DNA of 32,148 bases from Chlamydiae bacterium SM23_39 (GTDB lineage: Bacteria > Chlamydiota > Chlamydiia > Chlamydiales > SM23-39), in the NCBI GenBank assembly GCA_001303765.1, contig LJUH01000009.1:1-32148 (forward strand), written 5' to 3'. Of this stretch, positions 9,426 to 32,148 are shown piece after piece. Each line of letters begins with the position of its first letter. Position 1 is the stretch's first letter. A program made the translations under genes and the position numbers. The notes below the pieces were generated by a model. It saw nothing but the letters and a program-made list of their open reading frames with translations. It made no database searches and was not told the origin of the DNA.

Positions 9426-10712
9426 TTAAAATGATGCAGTAGCTTCTTTAATCACAATTTTACCACTATCATAAGTATTCCATGCTCCTATCACATTACC
9501 ATCAGCACTTGTTGCTATAAATAATTTTGTAATATCTGTAACAGATCCATCCATTACAACTTGCGAACTCCATACTAGTCCGTCAACAGAATCTTTTTCT
9601 ATAACTTTATAATGATCATCTGAATATTCTAACCATGCTACTATTATATTTCCTAATCCATTCACTGAAACAGTTTGCCTTATAATATATTTCCCTACTT
9701 CTGAAATATCTATTACAGGAGCCCAATTTTGTCCATAATCAGCAGAGACTCTTCCTGCTACAGTAGCTTGATCACTTATATAATCTTTATTCCATATAAC
9801 CATAACTTTTGCTTGATTCATTGATATTTGCAATCCTTGAAGAAACTTTGTTTCAGTAGAAAGAGTAACAGGTGTTCCTAACCAAGTCTCTCCTTTATCT
9901 GCTGTTCTATTCATTTTAACAATAAATTTATTTTCTACCCAACAAACTACCACATTTCCTGAATCATCACCTGCTATCTGAGGGGTTACTGAAGCTGCTT
10001 CATCTTCAGAAATAAAAGATCTTGCACTCCAATTATCCCCAAAGTCTGAGGAATGTCTCTCCGCTATTCTCATATAATTACCGCATTGTTCTTTCCATAC
10101 TGCAATAGCTATATTACTATTACTTACAAATATTTTAGGGGTTTCAGAATAAATATTTACATTAGTAAGTATAGTTTCATTTGCTGACCAATTTTTTCCT
10201 GCATCAATAGAATGCCTTTCTCCTATAACAGTTCTTTTTGTAATGTTATCTCTCTCCCATACTACAACTGCTTTCCCATCAGCAGACATTGATATTTCTG
10301 CTATATTTGCATTATTTTTCTCAGGAGATAAATAAGCAGGGGTAGACCAATTCTGTTGAGCTTCTTTATATGATTCTTGTATTCTAAAATTTGATCCATC
10401 AAAATACTTCCATACCGCTACAGCATTACCTGCTTCATCTATTACTACTTTAGGATCTGTTGCTGACTGTGAAGGATTTGAAATCATTACAACACTTGAA
10501 AAGGTTGTTCCATAATCATCAGAATATCTACCCATTATAGCATAGTTTCCATTTACATATTGTGTCCAAATAACTACAGCTTCTCCTAATGAATTAAGTG
10601 CAATTTGAGGATCATAGGATTTAACTCCATCAGATAATGTTTGAGCAGCATTCCATGTTAATGAAAATGCATTAACTGCAACAAATAAAAAAACAAAAAA
10701 TTTTTTAAACAT
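9426..10712 (-). CDS. Secreted Asp-box (BNR) beta-propeller protein, short form
   Basis: The 428-residue protein has a signal peptide (MFKKFFVFLFVAVNAFS). It then has eight copies of an inner-strand motif G-x-A/V-V-V-x-W (LGEAVVIW, AGNAVAVW, DGKAVVVW, SGNVVVCW, LGNIIVAW, DGNVIGAW among them). Between them are seven Asp-box segments (SDDYGTTF, HSIDAGKNW, HSSDFGDNW, RTADKGETW, SADYGQNW and two weaker). This is the clearest propeller of the set. It lacks the C-terminal domain of the 513- and 519-residue relatives and ends after the last blade. The ribosome site AAGGAG lies 8 nt from the ATG, only 12 bases after the upstream paralog's stop, so both are one operon. No sialidase catalytic motif is seen; a surface or secreted carbohydrate/protein-binding role is inferred. 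Confidence 0.8.
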   Translation of the reverse strand: MFKKFFVFLFVAVNAFSLTWNAAQTLSDGVKSYDPQIALNSLGEAVVIWTQYVNGNYAIMGRYSDDYGTTFSSVVMISNPSQSATDPKVVIDEAGNAVAVWKYFDGSNFRIQESYKEAQQNWSTPAYLSPEKNNANIAEISMSADGKAVVVWERDNITKRTVIGERHSIDAGKNWSANETILTNVNIYSETPKIFVSNSNIAIAVWKEQCGNYMRIAERHSSDFGDNWSARSFISEDEAASVTPQIAGDDSGNVVVCWVENKFIVKMNRTADKGETWLGTPVTLSTETKFLQGLQISMNQAKVMVIWNKDYISDQATVAGRVSADYGQNWAPVIDISEVGKYIIRQTVSVNGLGNIIVAWLEYSDDHYKVIEKDSVDGLVWSSQVVMDGSVTDITKLFIATSADGNVIGAWNTYDSGKIVIKEATASF

Positions 10713-10724
10713 AATTATTCTCCT

Positions 10725-12284
10725 TTATTCTACTATTATTTTAGTTGAATCTCTCTGCACTCCAAAATTATCCTCCCAAGTCAAATAATATTGATCTCCT
10801 ATTTTACTATTTCGCATTTCATATTCTAAGGAAGTAGTAGTAGCAATACGTTTTTGTAAATTTGCATATTTATATATGTTATATCTAACTGCAAAAGGAA
10901 CTTTTTCCCAGCTAATAGTATGAACTAATTCTTTTGTTAAAAAGAAATTAACATTTCTTTTGCTAACCTCATTTTTTATCCCTAAATATATACCACTTAT
11001 AGAAAAAGGTATCCATGTTCCATTCGAAGCATAAGCATAAGTTTGTGGTCCTGGTAAAGTACTTCTAAAAACTATAACAACATGTCCTGTTTTATCCATA
11101 GTTATTCCACGTGTATCTGAATTTTGCCCTGCAGGCGATATATCTAATACATCACTCCAAGTGGTAGCTTTATCAAAAGACCACCTAATTTGAACAGGAA
11201 CATAAACACCGGTAGATCTCTGCCAAGTAACAAAAGTATTACCAAATGTATCACATGCAACTTTACAATCATTTGCATTTTGACCAGCTTGAGAAAGATA
11301 TACAAGACTACTCCAATTACTTCCATAATCTATTGTATGTCTTTCCACAATCCTATCATTAGTTCCATCTGATAAATTCCAAACAACTATACCATATCCG
11401 TTATCATCAATACAACACTCATAATCATTACCTATAGCAGGATCTAAAATAACAGAAGAAAAATTAGCGCCAGAATCAAGACTATAAAGTGCATAAGATC
11501 CCGCAGGAGTTGATCCTCTTGCATATAATACAAATCCTGCATCATTCATTTTAACATCAACTATTCTATTAGATGCAGATGAAGGAAAAATCGGAGAAGG
11601 AGGATTTATAAAACCAAAAGTTCCCGCACTCCAATGACCAAACACACGACATACTGGTTCATCAAGAGCAGGATAATCAGAACAAATCATAACTGCGTCA
11701 TCATTATTGTTTATTGCAACCGCAGGAAGATAATAAGTATTAACAGGCGCAGCAGTAAACTCAAGCCCCCAAGTACTACCTCCATCAGGAGTTGAATATA
11801 CATCAACAGAAACTGCAGAAGTAGTAAAAGCAAATAATCCTATCTTATTATCGTTTATAGCTAAACTAAGATGCTTAGCAAATGGATGAATAGGCCCTAC
11901 AATAGAAGACCAATTATCTCCATAGTCTGAAGAATAAGAAGAGTAAAGGGGGTTACTAAATTGAATATTAAATATCACTGCAGCATCACCCACATTATTA
12001 ATATCAAAAGAAAAGTTAGCATTAGAATTAATAGGCGCAGTGGAAATAGTTACAACACTAGACCAAGAAGCTCCATAATCCGATGAAATTACTCTTCTTA
12101 ACTGATAGTCCGCAGCCCCTGAAACATCTGCTATATAAAGACAAAGTACATTTCCATAATCATTCATTTTCACATCCGCGTTTAGTACATCATAACCAGA
12201 AATTACAAGCGAAGGCAAGGTCCAAGAAAATTCTCCAAAAATTTTAAAACAACATAACAAAAAAGCAAAGATTAATTTCTTCAC
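10725..12284 (-). CDS. Secreted Asp-box (BNR) beta-propeller protein with C-terminal beta domain
   Basis: The 519-residue paralog of the 240-1781 protein shares the N-terminal block KIFGEFSWTLPS, the repeat DVKMNDYGNVLCLY, Asp boxes (SSDYGASW, SSDYGDNW, SLDSGANF, HTIDYGSNW, WSFDKATTW) and the same C-terminal domain from YLGIK to YLTWEDNFGVQRDS. Its start is GTG, not ATG: the codon at 12284-12282 sits 6 nt after a strong AAGGAG site, and the signal peptide MKKLIFAFLLCCF follows directly. It is the first gene of a two-gene operon with the short-form propeller. The promoter at 12315-12344 resembles those of its paralogs. No catalytic sialidase motifs are seen. The function is unknown; secretion and binding are inferred from the fold. 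Confidence 0.8.
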   Translation of the reverse strand: MKKLIFAFLLCCFKIFGEFSWTLPSLVISGYDVLNADVKMNDYGNVLCLYIADVSGAADYQLRRVISSDYGASWSSVVTISTAPINSNANFSFDINNVGDAAVIFNIQFSNPLYSSYSSDYGDNWSSIVGPIHPFAKHLSLAINDNKIGLFAFTTSAVSVDVYSTPDGGSTWGLEFTAAPVNTYYLPAVAINNNDDAVMICSDYPALDEPVCRVFGHWSAGTFGFINPPSPIFPSSASNRIVDVKMNDAGFVLYARGSTPAGSYALYSLDSGANFSSVILDPAIGNDYECCIDDNGYGIVVWNLSDGTNDRIVERHTIDYGSNWSSLVYLSQAGQNANDCKVACDTFGNTFVTWQRSTGVYVPVQIRWSFDKATTWSDVLDISPAGQNSDTRGITMDKTGHVVIVFRSTLPGPQTYAYASNGTWIPFSISGIYLGIKNEVSKRNVNFFLTKELVHTISWEKVPFAVRYNIYKYANLQKRIATTTSLEYEMRNSKIGDQYYLTWEDNFGVQRDSTKIIVE

Positions 12285-16351: not shown

Positions 16352-17473
16352 ATGAAAAAAAATATTTTTTTTCTTTTTTTTATATTTCTATTATTTAATC
16401 TCTTTATAAAAGATATTTATTTTTTAATATTCTCCTCAATATTTTCCTCATTTAATATCTTACTATTAATAAAAAATATAGATAAAAAAAAAGAAAAAAT
16501 TCTTAATTCTTTGATGGAGGGAATTTTAATTTTAGATAGCAATAAAAAAATAAAATATTTTAATGCTGAAACTATAAAAATATTTGGAAAATTAAAAAAA
16601 GGATTTTTTTTAAAAGATATTAAACAAAAACCTTCTCAAATAGAAGATCTCATATTTCTCTGTCAAAAAAAACATTCTCCAATAAAAATAGAACTCTCTT
16701 TTCAAGAAAAATTTTTAGATATTATAGCCATTCCTAAAAAGAAAGAAACAATTTTAATATTTAAAGATAAAACTTTAGATCATCAAGGTAAAGATTTTAT
16801 AGCTAATGCATCTCATGAACTTAGAACTCCTATTACCATTATTAGAGGATTTGCTGAAACTTTAAATGATTTTCCTAAATTATCTAAAAACAAAACAAAA
16901 GAGATAATTAAAAAAATAATAAAAACATCTTTAGAATTAGAAGATCTAATCAAAAATCTTTTAATGCTAGCTAAATTAGATAATTTAGATCCTTACAATT
17001 TAGAAAAAAATGATATTTTTGATATTATTGAAAATATCAAAAAAACCTTTTTAAATATCTATCCAAATGCTCAAATAAATATAAATATCTCTAAAAATTC
17101 TCTTTTCATTTTTTCAGAAAAAAAGCTTTTAGAATTAGCAATAAAAAATATTTTAGAGAATTCAATAAAATATTGTTCTTCTTCTCCCAATATATTTATT
17201 AAAGGAGAAAAAATAGCAAACAAAATTCTGCTCTCTATAAAAGATAATGGAATTGGAATAGATAAAAAAAATTTACCCTTCATATTTAATAAATTTTTTA
17301 CTCTAAATAAAACTAATTCAAAAAAACATGAAGGAACTGGTCTTGGCCTCTCTATAGTTAAAAATGTTATAGAAAAACACAAAGGAATTATAAAAGTTTA
17401 TTCTGAAATAGATAAAGGAACTACTTTTGAAATACTACTTCCCGCCTTTAAAAATGAAGCTCCTTCCTTATAG
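16352..17473 (+). CDS. Sensor histidine kinase (PhoR-like), orphan in this window
   Basis: The 373-residue membrane kinase has two hydrophobic segments at residues 3-19 and 22-41 with almost no loop between, so it has little or no extracytoplasmic sensor. A PAS-like domain follows (about 45-140: MEGILILDSNKKIKYFN). The HisKA box FIANASHELRTPITII holds the phospho-acceptor His155. The HATPase domain has N-box ELAIKNILENSIKY (261-274), G1 DNGIGID (298-304) and G2 GTGLGLS (328-334). The build matches PhoR/WalK-type kinases sensing from the cytoplasm or membrane. No response regulator gene is in the window. It is translationally adjacent to pepP (3-base gap), and its last 26 bases overlap the 3' end of the convergent gene at 17448. 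Confidence 0.9.
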   Translation: MKKNIFFLFFIFLLFNLFIKDIYFLIFSSIFSSFNILLLIKNIDKKKEKILNSLMEGILILDSNKKIKYFNAETIKIFGKLKKGFFLKDIKQKPSQIEDLIFLCQKKHSPIKIELSFQEKFLDIIAIPKKKETILIFKDKTLDHQGKDFIANASHELRTPITIIRGFAETLNDFPKLSKNKTKEIIKKIIKTSLELEDLIKNLLMLAKLDNLDPYNLEKNDIFDIIENIKKTFLNIYPNAQININISKNSLFIFSEKKLLELAIKNILENSIKYCSSSPNIFIKGEKIANKILLSIKDNGIGIDKKNLPFIFNKFFTLNKTNSKKHEGTGLGLSIVKNVIEKHKGIIKVYSEIDKGTTFEILLPAFKNEAPSL

Positions 17474-18281
17474 ATATCTTAGAAATCTCATCTGTACAAA
17501 TAACAACGGAAGCTTCTTTTTCATGCCTCTTATGCGATAAATCTATCAAATCCTCCATATTTAATGGAATTCTTATTTTTTCTTTCATATCTCCATTTCT
17601 AATGGATAATATTTTTATTGCGGTTTCTCTATCAAACATAGCAAAAATAAGTTCTTCTTTAGCTTTTGTAATACATATTTTATCTTTTTTTTCAGATATT
17701 TTTATAAAATCTAAAATAGAAGGATATCCAACATTTTTTTTAAAATCATAAAACTTTGTTCCTTTTAACATTTTATACCAAACACTTTGTAATTGTTGAT
17801 TTTGAAAATCAATCTTTTCTAAATAAAAATCTTTTTTATCTTTAGCCATCAGAATAATTTTATCTAAAAGAGAATCTTCAATTTCTCTATTTAATATCTT
17901 ACCATAAAGAAGTTTCATTAATCTTTTAGTTATCTCATATATCTTCTTCTCTTTTATCTTTCCATTTTTTAGAAGAGGATAAATATTTATCTGTCCACAA
18001 CTAAATATCTTATTATCCTTTTCCTCTTTTTTTTTCTTATTAGTTTTACTTTTTTTTTCTTTATTTTTTTTATTTTTTTCATCAATTGTCTTTTTCTTCT
18101 TTATTGACTTAGAACTTTTATATAAAAAAGATTCATAGCTATTTTGAGAAATTCTATAAGCATTTAAATACCCTTCAATACTTTTTTTCATAATAACGCT
18201 ATCTCTATGATCTTTAAACATAAAATGAGATATCATAGCAAAAATTATTAAAATAGCAGATATAAAAGATAAAATATTCAT
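17448..18281 (-). CDS. Lysine-rich single-pass membrane protein, probably CT566-like
   Basis: The 277-residue protein has one N-terminal membrane helix (MNILSFISAILIIFAMISHF) and a very lysine-rich stretch around residues 62-92. A globular part follows (from CGQINIYPLLKNG) with LMKLLYGKILNREIEDSL, and a C-terminal helix-rich tail ending EISKISIRKELHF. I do not recognise a general Pfam-type domain. Its start overlaps the stop of the pseudopilin-like gene upstream (ATGA), and position and size resemble the CT566-CT568 group next to gsp genes in Chlamydia; that identification is from gene-order memory. A role in a type II secretion-like apparatus is inferred from this neighbourhood only. The 3' end overlaps the histidine kinase gene by 26 bases in the opposite direction. 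Confidence 0.7.
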   Translation of the reverse strand: MNILSFISAILIIFAMISHFMFKDHRDSVIMKKSIEGYLNAYRISQNSYESFLYKSSKSIKKKKTIDEKNKKNKEKKSKTNKKKKEEKDNKIFSCGQINIYPLLKNGKIKEKKIYEITKRLMKLLYGKILNREIEDSLLDKIILMAKDKKDFYLEKIDFQNQQLQSVWYKMLKGTKFYDFKKNVGYPSILDFIKISEKKDKICITKAKEELIFAMFDRETAIKILSIRNGDMKEKIRIPLNMEDLIDLSHKRHEKEASVVICTDEISKISIRKELHF

Positions 18282-18823
18282 AACTCTTCAAAATAGATTA
18301 TTGGGGCAGAAAAAACAAAAAAAGTAAAGCTAAAATTTTTATTTTTATTTTTTATTTTTATTTTTAAAGCTATTTTATTTTTTTTTGATGGAACAATCAA
18401 AGATTTTTTTTTGATAATAATAAATCTTATCTTTTCTATATCTCTTGCTAATATCTCCTCTCTTTTTAACTTCATATCTTTTTCATCAGGAAAAGAATAA
18501 AGTATTAAATTTTTATTTTCATCTAAAAATAAAATAGAAAAAATTGTTTTAGAAAATTTCGGATTTAAATCTATTTTATTATCATAATAAAAATAAAGTT
18601 TATCATCTTTAACCTTGACAGATTTACCAACAACTAAATTAGAAAATAAACCATTTAGTCTTACCCACAAATTATGTTTAAAAAGCACATTTTCTTTAGC
18701 TTTTTTCATTTTTTTTTCCATATTAATTATCTGTGTAAAAAACCTAAAAACAACAGTTAAAATGATAGATAAGATAAAGAGCGAGATCATCACCTCTAAC
18801 AAGGTAAAAAAATATTTTTTCAT
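18278..18823 (-). CDS. Type II secretion minor pseudopilin-like protein (CT567-like)
   Basis: The 181-residue protein starts MKKYFFTLLEVMISLFILS, a type IV prepilin leader: a short basic head, then FTLLE with Glu at +5, then a hydrophobic helix of about 20 residues. The residue before the cleavage site is Phe rather than the usual Gly, which could hinder prepilin peptidase. The rest is lysine-rich with a beta-sheet-like pattern, as in GspJ/GspI-type minor pseudopilins. It overlaps the next gene by 4 bases (ATGA) and follows the 153-residue pseudopilin-like gene after 39 bases, so these are one operon. The order of two pseudopilins and a membrane protein resembles CT568-CT567-CT566. Confidence 0.75.
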   Translation of the reverse strand: MKKYFFTLLEVMISLFILSIILTVVFRFFTQIINMEKKMKKAKENVLFKHNLWVRLNGLFSNLVVGKSVKVKDDKLYFYYDNKIDLNPKFSKTIFSILFLDENKNLILYSFPDEKDMKLKREEILARDIEKIRFIIIKKKSLIVPSKKNKIALKIKIKNKNKNFSFTFFVFSAPIIYFEEL

Positions 18824-18862
18824 TTCTATTATTTTAAAAAAAAAAGATAAAAAAAAGAAAGT

Positions 18863-19324
18863 TCAAATAGACTTTTTCTTAATCTTAGGTATTTTTTTTA
18901 TAAAAAGAAAATATATAAAATATTTTCTCCCTCTTTTTTTAAAAGGTTCTTTTAGAGAAATTTGAAGATGAAGTTTTACATATTTTTCATTTATACCTGA
19001 TTTAGCTCTACCCCAAATAAGATAGTATATTGGTATCTTTTTATCTATTAAACCGTCGATTACTATTCTTTCATCTTTTAACCTTAAATATTTTGCTTCT
19101 TCTTTTTTTTTAGGAAGGTCTTTTATTGAAATCTTATTTTTAATTAATTTTTTTTTAATTTTACAAAAAACTTCATATTCTAAAATTTTAAGTTCCAACT
19201 CTTCTAATTCCTTTATCTCTCTTTTATAAAAATAAAGAGGATTACTTATAATAAGTGCTGTGCATATAGAGATAAGGAAAAGAGCTATTAATATTTCTAA
19301 TAAAACAAAAGAACGTTTTTTCAT
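18863..19324 (-). CDS. Type II secretion minor pseudopilin-like protein (CT568-like)
   Basis: The 153-residue protein begins MKKRSFVLLEILIALFLIS: a basic leader of five residues, then FVLLE with the conserved Glu at +5 and a hydrophobic helix, the type III/IV prepilin signature. Position -1 is Ser, not Gly. A helical stretch rich in Glu/Lys follows (KREIKELEELELKILEYE), then a small beta-rich domain. It lies 18 bases after the pgsA stop and 39 bases before the second pseudopilin-like gene. Together they probably form tip or minor subunits of a type II secretion pseudopilus; gspD, E, F and G are not in the window, so the rest of the machine must be elsewhere or missing. Confidence 0.75.
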   Translation of the reverse strand: MKKRSFVLLEILIALFLISICTALIISNPLYFYKREIKELEELELKILEYEVFCKIKKKLIKNKISIKDLPKKKEEAKYLRLKDERIVIDGLIDKKIPIYYLIWGRAKSGINEKYVKLHLQISLKEPFKKRGRKYFIYFLFIKKIPKIKKKSI

Positions 19325-29699: not shown

Positions 29700-31517
29700 A
29701 TGGTTGAGAAAAAATTAAAAATCAAAACACCTCCTAATTCCAAAGAATCAGAGATGATGGTTTTAGGAAGTATGTTAACTAATTTTAATAGTTTAAATAT
29801 AGCAATAGATGGATTAGAAGAAACAGATTTCTATTATCAAGAACATAGGATAATATTCAAAAGCATAAAAGAACTTTATAAAAAAGATAAACCTGCTGAT
29901 ATCCACATAGTTGCTGAAGAGCTTAAAAATATAGAAAAGCTAAAAGAAGTAGGAGATATAAATTATTTAACCACTTTAGCTCAATATGCTGGAACCTCTG
30001 TTTATGTAGAAGAATATATCAATCTAATCAAAGAAAAATCAATTTTAAGGCAGATGATAGATGTCTCTAATGAAATAATAAAATTCTCTTTAAAATCTCC
30101 TAAAGATGTATATCAAATTTTAGATGAAGCTCAATCCAAATATTTTAATATATCTCAAAAATCAAATAGAAAATATGGAGTTTTGGTAAAAGAACTCTTA
30201 TCTGGAGTTAGTTCAGAAAGTAAACTTCCCTTTTTAAAAGAATTACAAGAAAGGCAAGAAAATTATCAAAAAAAAGGACCTGAAGCTTCAAAAATAATCG
30301 GAGTTGCATCTCATTTTACAGATTTAGATAAATTAATTAATGGCATGACAGCTTCTAATTTAATAATTCTTGCTTCAAGACCAGCTATGGGAAAAACAGC
30401 TCTTGCATTAAACATATCCGAAAACATAAGTTTAAAAAGTTCCCTACCAGTTGGAATATTTTCATTAGAAATGACAGCTGAGCAGCTTCTTCATAGAATA
30501 ATCTGTTCTCAATCAGAAGTTGAATCAGACAAAATAAAAACAGGTTCTTTAAATGGTTTAGAATATCAAAATATAGTTTCAACAGTAAATATTTTAAAAA
30601 ATCATAATATTGTTATCGATGATTATCCTGGTTTAAAAATAACAGATATAAGAGCTAGAGCTAGAAGGATGAAAGAAGTATATGATGTAAAATTTTTAGT
30701 GATAGATTATCTTCAACTAATTTCAGGATCTGGAACTATGAAATCTTCAGAAAGCAGGCAAATAGAAATTTCAGAAATTTCAAGAATGTTAAAAAATTTA
30801 GCAAGAGAATTAAACATACCCATCCTTTGTCTTTCTCAGCTTTCTAGGAAGGTAGAAGAGAGGCAGGGTCACAGACCTATAATGAGTGATTTAAGAGAAT
30901 CAGGCTGTTTAGCAGGGGATACGTTGATAAAAGATTATCAAAATGAGAAGCTATATACAATTGAAGAGCTCGCTAAAAGAAAAATCCAAAAACCTATTTA
31001 CACATATTCTGTAGACAAAAATTTTAAATTAAAAAAACAAAAATTTATTAAATTTTTTTCTTCAGGAAAAAAATTAACATATCTTTTAAAAACAAAATCA
31101 AAATCTATAAAGGCTAGCTCTAACCACCCATTTTTAAAAAAAGAGGGATGGGTTAATTTAGAACAATTAAAAGTAAAAGATAAAATTGCAACTTTTAAAC
31201 TTCAAAACATATATTGGGAAGAGATCATATCAATACAAGAATTAAAAGAAGAAGAAGTATATGATGCCACTGTAGAAAATTTACATAACTTTATAGCAAA
31301 TGATATAATAGTTCATAATAGTATAGAACAAGATGCTGATCTTATCATGTTTATTTTTAGAAATGAATATTATGATCCCTATGATAAACCAGGATACGCT
31401 GAATTGATAGTTGCAAAAAATAGGCATGGAAGAGTAGGTTCTGTTAATTTAACTTTTAGAAAAGAAATAGCTCAATTTTCCAATTACTCAGAAAAAGAAT
31501 ACTTTGTAGAAAATTAA
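29700..31517 (+). CDS. dnaB: Replicative DNA helicase DnaB carrying a mini-intein
   Basis: DnaB is the hexameric helicase of the replication fork. The 605-residue reading consists of a 402-residue N-extein, a 138-residue intein (403-540) and a 65-residue C-extein, giving a mature protein of 467 residues, the usual DnaB size. N-terminal DnaB domain: PPNSKESEMMVLGSML. RecA-like ATPase: Walker A ASRPAMGKTAL with Lys232, SLEMTAEQLLHRI, Walker B FLVIDYLQLI, and PILCLSQLSRKVEERQGHRPIMSDLRESG just before the insertion. After it, SIEQDADLIMFIFRNEYYD and the arginine-finger region VAKNRHGRVGSVNLTF. No ribosome site is seen before the ATG. Activity of the helicase depends on splicing, since the insert breaks the ATPase core. 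Confidence 0.95.
   Translation: MVEKKLKIKTPPNSKESEMMVLGSMLTNFNSLNIAIDGLEETDFYYQEHRIIFKSIKELYKKDKPADIHIVAEELKNIEKLKEVGDINYLTTLAQYAGTSVYVEEYINLIKEKSILRQMIDVSNEIIKFSLKSPKDVYQILDEAQSKYFNISQKSNRKYGVLVKELLSGVSSESKLPFLKELQERQENYQKKGPEASKIIGVASHFTDLDKLINGMTASNLIILASRPAMGKTALALNISENISLKSSLPVGIFSLEMTAEQLLHRIICSQSEVESDKIKTGSLNGLEYQNIVSTVNILKNHNIVIDDYPGLKITDIRARARRMKEVYDVKFLVIDYLQLISGSGTMKSSESRQIEISEISRMLKNLARELNIPILCLSQLSRKVEERQGHRPIMSDLRESGCLAGDTLIKDYQNEKLYTIEELAKRKIQKPIYTYSVDKNFKLKKQKFIKFFSSGKKLTYLLKTKSKSIKASSNHPFLKKEGWVNLEQLKVKDKIATFKLQNIYWEEIISIQELKEEEVYDATVENLHNFIANDIIVHNSIEQDADLIMFIFRNEYYDPYDKPGYAELIVAKNRHGRVGSVNLTFRKEIAQFSNYSEKEYFVEN
30906..31319 (+). other. DnaB mini-intein (138 residues, no homing endonuclease)
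   Basis: The insert lies between DLRESG and SIEQDAD. It starts CLAGDT (block A, Cys403), has block B KASSNHPFL (His476, with Ser473 in place of the usual Thr), block F EEVYDATVENLHNFIANDI, and block G VHN (His539, Asn540), followed by Ser541 as the +1 nucleophile. All residues of a class 1 splicing reaction are present. Site and sequence resemble the Synechocystis DnaB intein (which begins CISGDS and ends FVANDIIVHN), but the endonuclease region between blocks B and F is absent, leaving about 45 residues. It is a natural minimal intein and cannot home by itself. Base composition is like the host gene, so it has been here long enough to adapt. Confidence 0.95.
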
Positions 31518-31595: not shown

Positions 31596-32148
31596 ATGAA
31601 AAAGAAAATTATTTTAATTGTATTAATAGCTGCAGCTATTGTGTTAACAAAAAATTTATTTTTTAAAAATAAAACAAAAAAAGGTTCTAATCCTACAAAA
31701 GAAAATTGCGTCCCTCAAAAAAAAGAAAATAGTGATAGGGAAGATAAAAAAGAATTCCCTTCAGAACCTCGCATAGATCAAAATCAAAGTCAAACGGATA
31801 ATTCTGTTTTTTTAAAAAAAAATAAAGATTCCGAAAAAGAAGAATCAGACTCTCAAGAACAAGACTCTGACAATAATCAAAATTCCAACAATGAAGATGA
31901 AAATGATGAAGAACAAAATTCTGAGGAAAAAAATAATAATTCTAATGAAAGTGAAGATTCAACAGATGAAGATGAAATCTTTGAAGAACAAGACTCAGAT
32001 GAAAATCAAGATTCTAATGAAAAAACTAATAATTCTAATAAAAGTGAAGATTCAACAGATGAAGATGAAATTTATGAAGAACAAGACTCCAGTGAAAATC
32101 AAGATTCTAATGAAAAAACAAATAATTCTGATGAAAATGAAGATTCAA
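31596..32148 (+). CDS. Partial membrane-anchored acidic repeat protein
   Basis: An open frame from ATG 31596 runs 184 codons to the window edge without a stop. Residues 1-23 are a basic-headed hydrophobic segment (KKKIILIVLIAAAIVLTKNL), either an uncleaved anchor or a signal. A lysine-rich stretch follows (to about 60), and then a low-complexity region of Glu, Asp, Asn, Ser and Gln with a 31-residue tandem repeat. I recognise no family. The acidic, disordered repeat recalls surface or secreted proteins of intracellular bacteria, but composition alone cannot show function. There is no clear ribosome site and 78 bases of A/T-rich sequence separate it from dnaB. The end of the gene is not in the window. 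Confidence 0.75.
   Translation, partial: MKKKIILIVLIAAAIVLTKNLFFKNKTKKGSNPTKENCVPQKKENSDREDKKEFPSEPRIDQNQSQTDNSVFLKKNKDSEKEESDSQEQDSDNNQNSNNEDENDEEQNSEEKNNNSNESEDSTDEDEIFEEQDSDENQDSNEKTNNSNKSEDSTDEDEIYEEQDSSENQDSNEKTNNSDENEDS
31935..32148 (+). repeat. 93-bp tandem repeat in the acidic repeat gene
   Basis: Units at 31935-32027 and 32028-32120, with a third starting at 32121 and cut by the window edge. Each encodes 31 residues beginning NNS and holding SEDSTDEDEI, then EEQDS and NQDSNEK. Units one and two differ at only a few bases, so the array is recently expanded and its length probably varies between strains. Confidence 0.9.

Follow-up and report, generated by a model that had tools for sequence, protein, structure and literature searches.

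The splicing chemistry of class 1 inteins follows an established pathway. Under the homing-cycle model, alleles are expected to be empty, full, or devoid of the endonuclease (PMC1654191, PMC3229294), and the DnaB intein of Rhodothermus marinus (Liu and Hu 1997, as cited in PMC3229294) is used there to argue that homing occurs between distantly related bacteria. In the mycobacterial DnaB, insertion site a is the H4 DNA-binding loop (PMC6195587). The solved structures nearest by sequence to the intein described here are those of the DnaB inteins of Synechocystis and Nostoc, and a limited search of the open-access literature found no published report of a chlamydial DnaB intein.

The window, by which we mean the whole stretch of 32,148 nucleotides that was analyzed, is one entire contig (G000:C8) of Chlamydiae bacterium SM23_39, the genome of which comprises 1.13 Mb in 67 contigs and is 97% complete. 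DnaB_C matches in this genome come from one gene only (Table 1), in agreement with the first-pass annotation of this DNA, which took the intein host to be an essential replication gene. The same annotation placed the DNA in a chlamydia-like chromosome, a view supported both by the contig gene set (TLC ATP/ADP transporter, DUF2709, argS, and others) and by phylogeny. Specifically, the DnaB extein lies within the clade of its chlamydial family (support 97/96 in the extein tree), the named members of which are Candidatus Anoxychlamydiales and other uncultured Chlamydiae, and RpoB groups with the same neighbors. An assembly of 67 contigs leaves some room for an artefact, with the intein-bearing dnaB binned from another organism, but the entire window is a single contig that bears chlamydial genes, including those for the TLC transporter and DUF2709, and with the concordant placement of DnaB and RpoB, such an error appears extremely unlikely. 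Several other genes of the window were also noted. A reading frame located 3' of dnaB (31596-32147, + strand) runs off the contig and encodes a protein with acidic D/E/N/S repeats (SEDSTDEDEI...) after its hydrophobic N-terminus and with no Pfam match; weak to clear BNR_2 repeat matches occur in three proteins (240-1781, 9426-10712, and 10725-12284, all on the - strand); and three adjoining proteins of 277, 181, and 153 aa (17448-19324, - strand) have no Pfam or PADLOC match.

Table 1. The intein-containing dnaB gene and its functional elements (positions in the window)
Feature	Positions	Strand	Basis
dnaB precursor, 605 aa	29700..31517	+	ORF reading, DnaB_C match
N-extein, 402 aa, C-terminus ...SDLRESG	29700..30905	+	ORF, junction reading
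Mini-intein, 138 aa, precursor residues 403-540	30906..31319	+	profiles, junctions, fold
Cys1, nucleophile of splicing step one; sole Cys in intein	30906..30908	+	direct reading
Block B S-S-N-H, residues 71-74	31116..31127	+	direct reading, alignment
Linker IATFKLQNIYW, residues 94-104, at the endonuclease position of relatives	31185..31217	+	alignment
Block F VYDATVENLHNFIA, residues 118-131	31257..31298	+	alignment
Block G ANDIIVHN, His137-Asn138	31296..31319	+	junction reading, alignment
Ser+1, transesterification nucleophile, residue 1 of C-extein	31320..31322	+	junction reading
C-extein, 65 aa, SIEQDADL... plus stop codon	31320..31517	+	ORF, junction reading

The insert is in frame, flanked by LRESG and SIEQ, with the junctions exactly at RESG/C and HN/S. 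Curated intein models recognize it, namely, Pfam Intein_splicing (PF14890; E = 4e-18, 66 bits against a cut-off of 35.8) and NCBIfam intein_Nterm and intein_Cterm (TIGR01445 and TIGR01443, both above cut-off), so the similarity to Hint domains on which the initial identification hinged is indeed found in profile searches; Intein_splicing matches a single locus in the genome. The AlphaFold2 model of the intein (mean pLDDT 96.7) adopts a horseshoe-like Hint fold, which Foldseek aligns with 1mi8 and 4o1r (TM 0.92 and 1.4 A in each case), and the model is also close to the splicing domain of Mtu RecA (TM 0.94). By its sequence and its modeled structure, the insert is a class 1 mini-intein, far beyond what could be expected by chance. 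The weak match of the insert to the PT-HINT profile (E 1.5e-4, below cut-off) might suggest a bacterial intein-like (BIL) or another Hint domain that cleaves instead of splicing; however, the location inside a conserved enzyme, the canonical HN/S junction, and the closest similarity, in both sequence and fold, to DnaB inteins leave this interpretation with next to no chance of being correct.

All the splicing residues that had been pointed out can be read directly from the translation: Cys1, S71-S-N-H74, D120/T122/H127, His137-Asn138, and Ser+1, that is, the complete class 1 set of a position-1 nucleophile, block B His, block F Asp, His-Asn, and Cys, Ser, or Thr at +1. A class 3 assignment was ruled out by the presence of Cys1 and of the Asp in block F. 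All 83 aligned DnaB inteins among those listed have, without exception, Cys1, the block B His, an Asp and a Thr in block F, and His-Asn at the end, and position +1 is Ser at every site-a junction examined. The RESG/SIEQ insertion site, which the annotation had also highlighted, is shared with many other DnaB inteins: the RESG / S-[IL]-EQ insertion point is common to all chlamydial site-a loci and to most of the others. The Ser in block B, in contrast, was earlier considered a small oddity but turns out to be the rule, being present in 78 of the 81 non-cyanobacterial sequences among the inteins listed, with the Thr of TxxH found in both cyanobacterial ones (our contig scan for inteins permitted either residue). 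Another position in this region varies as well: of the 83 listed DnaB inteins, 81 possess a hairpin Gly ahead of block B (KS-KSIKA), which the window copy has lost by deletion and which is replaced by Lys only in the intein of genome G007.

Taken together, these features make it very probable that the insert belongs to the DnaB site-a family as a cis-splicing mini-intein of class 1 and that it descends from a full-length intein, the splicing activity, the reaction steps, and the deletion in this lineage being inferred. Upon folding of the Hint domain in the precursor, Cys1 would attack the Gly-Cys peptide bond, with the help of the block B His74; the N-extein would be passed on to Ser+1; Asn138 would cyclize with the aid of His137; and RESG would be joined to SIEQ through an acyl shift. 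The predicted product is a DnaB of 467 aa, the mature length that had been proposed and the one obtained by computation when the insert is removed from the translation. Judging from the flanking motif, the insertion site in the window is probably the equivalent of the mycobacterial site a, within the H4 DNA-binding loop, and an insert that stayed in this loop would presumably harm the only replicative helicase. This expectation, the conservation of every splicing residue across a large divergence, and the confident structure model argue against the possibility that splicing is absent or very slow, with DnaB functioning despite the retained 138-aa insert. The splicing of the window intein is a prediction, and this copy lacks the hairpin Gly, for which that of G007 has another residue; even so, we regard a dead or very slow intein as very unlikely.

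The annotation described the mini-intein as endonuclease-free, and this is confirmed: the LAGLIDADG_3 profile has no match in the whole host genome, and in the window copy blocks B and F are joined by the eleven-residue linker. The proposed loss of the endonuclease is supported by the architecture of same-site relatives, which carry approximately 290 additional residues at the linker position, with LAGLIDADG_3 found there in the three relatives scanned. The ancestral full-length intein would have lost its LAGLIDADG endonuclease by a deletion between residues ~94 and 104, although the window copy retains no scar of it, and the resulting intein would be unable to home. Its persistence could be explained by imprecise removal being destructive to the only replicative helicase, together with continuing selection for splicing.

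The survey of Chlamydiota places this putative deletion in a broader context. DnaB inteins were detected in 39 of the 234 genomes (195 had no match): 34 are complete and occupy site a, three are at the P-loop site b only (G001, G013, G152), and two are split between contigs (G024, G175). The complete site-a inteins include 22 mini-inteins (137-194 aa) and 12 in which the endonuclease region is largely or entirely retained (376-431 aa), forming a size ladder from 431 down to 137 aa that includes intermediates; in G159 and G188, short pieces ahead of the SDIYWDE motif look like endonuclease ends, that is, apparent stubs. Full-length inteins are scattered over the tree of DnaB exteins, with 12 changes for 12 sequences, and at least 11 of these changes are forced by well-supported branches; for the part of the family concerned, RpoB yields the same order of hosts. 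Even within one genus (g21), two genomes (G025 and G029) carry full-length inteins and two (G020 and G027) carry mini-inteins. Repeated endonuclease loss is the simplest reading of these scattered states, which may alternatively reflect allele replacement by recombination. Two further observations concern the occupancy of dnaB in this phylum. The P-loop is a second intein site (GK/C...HN/T), with inteins of 305-492 aa that possess Cys1 (L143, L141, L180, L160, L164, and L173, in G001, G013, G152, G153, G163, and G178, respectively), and both sites are occupied in three genomes. Furthermore, apart from its main dnaB with the mini-intein, G020 contains a 122-aa fragment of the DnaB C-terminus (L238:799-1167; G020:C23:20598-20966; site PESG-SLEADAD) that has no intein, is about 70% identical to chlamydial DnaBs, and adjoins a likely transposase; this fragment could be what is left of another dnaB allele, an empty one, or else a binning error.

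Estimates of dN/dS by the Nei-Gojobori method show that mini-inteins of the relatives are subject to purifying selection: for the close pair G020/G027, the ratio is 0.19 compared with 0.046 for the exteins, so the mini-intein evolves faster than the helicase and yet is clearly constrained. The full-length pair G025/G029 yields 0.12. The window genus is represented by one genome, and selection on the window copy is therefore measurable only against distant relatives; the comparison with the G007 intein (dN/dS 0.17 at a near-saturated dS of 1.6) indirectly suggests purifying selection here too.

The persistence of endonuclease-free copies under selection, along with the redox control reported for the class 3 DnaB intein in the P-loop of Mycobacterium smegmatis (PMC6195587), brings up conditional splicing, whereby the intein would splice but delay DnaB maturation as a switch, for example, in response to redox state or developmental stage. 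However, the site-a class 1 intein of M. smegmatis shows no redox response (PMC6195587), no intra-intein disulfide is possible in the window intein because Cys1 is its only Cys, and the presence of these inteins is patchy, with 195 of the 234 chlamydial genomes lacking a match. We consider such a switch unlikely. A more elaborate scenario, with repeated entry into chlamydial DnaB, many independent endonuclease losses, and retention of the endonuclease-free form because slow or conditional splicing couples replication to the stage of the intracellular cycle, has but a slim chance.

With respect to origin, the contig scan retained its best 80 matches, and the non-chlamydial comparison set hence leans to close relatives. 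Among the inteins listed, the nearest ones from Chlamydiota and Patescibacteria share 60-62% identity with that of the window, compared with 43% for the Synechocystis DnaB intein. Placing the Synechocystis and window inteins as sisters is rejected (AU p = 0.0008), so the close relationship that was originally suggested is not supported. In the 83-row tree, the window and G007 inteins are sisters (99/87), but in the 52-row tree, which left out three long branches and 28 other rows, this pairing is gone and G007 joins its host relatives (99/98); the sister of the window intein thus differs between the two trees, and with 140 alignment columns, deep branches are poorly resolved. The phylogenetic check that had been proposed was carried out with chlamydial inteins included, with other Bacteroidota site-a inteins substituting for that of Rhodothermus. 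Bacteroidota and Chlamydiota are mixed in the intein tree; the AU tests of vertical groupings give p ~0.22, and the data do not reject a single clade that unites the chlamydial inteins (p = 0.22). The correlation between intein and extein distances is only moderate (Spearman 0.41, and 0.28 when distant pairs are taken), which demonstrates neither a purely vertical nor a purely horizontal mode of descent. Both the mixed tree and the patchy distribution are compatible with horizontal movement, in one entry or several, and subsequent local descent; the horizontal origin put forward by the annotation appears likely, with one chlamydial clade still compatible with the data. Viral sequences were considered as donors and set aside: the best viral matches are at most 40% identical over most of the length and reach 45-56% over 32-38 residues only, so no viral donor is indicated. 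Similar mini-inteins were also encountered in another host protein, presumably DnaE, of a Campbellbacteria genome and an uncultured bacterium (L078:4001-4411 and L127:4001-4462; flanks FNK/C...HN/SHAASYG), which suggests spread between genes.

Taken singly, the window intein is of an ordinary, well-known kind. The value is in its relatives, where empty, full-length, partly eroded, and minimal inteins are found at one site, in one gene, in one phylum, with full-length and mini forms occurring even in one genus (g21). With these allele states side by side, the homing-cycle prediction that the endonuclease decays while splicing stays under selection becomes testable on close natural alleles. Moreover, if the intein splices in the expected way, these obligate intracellular bacteria rely on protein splicing for an essential step of replication.

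Among the known systems, the Synechocystis sp. PCC 6803 DnaB mini-intein (PDB 1mi8; M86 variant 6frg/6frh) shares with the window intein the gene, the fold, and the class 1 residues, as well as the insertion site, judging from the known site and the flanks of relatives. It differs in the Thr of block B and groups with the inteins of Nostoc and Thermoflexus, unlike the window intein; furthermore, the mini form in 1mi8 was engineered from a larger intein, in contrast to the natural one in the window. The Nostoc punctiforme DnaB mini-intein (PDB 4o1r) has the same fold and the same residues, with 40% identity over the aligned columns. The Rhodothermus marinus intein likewise resides in DnaB; in its place, other Bacteroidota site-a inteins were compared. 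In M. smegmatis, DnaBi2 is a class 1 intein at site a in the H4 DNA-binding loop, as predicted for the window intein, but retains its endonuclease, whereas DnaBi1 is a class 3 intein at site b, in the P-loop (PMC6195587). The full-length DnaB inteins of 429-431 aa from Chlamydiota, Bacteroidota, and Patescibacteria have the same site and the same splicing domain, with up to 62% identity among those listed, and differ from the window intein by the approximately 290 additional residues between blocks B and F.
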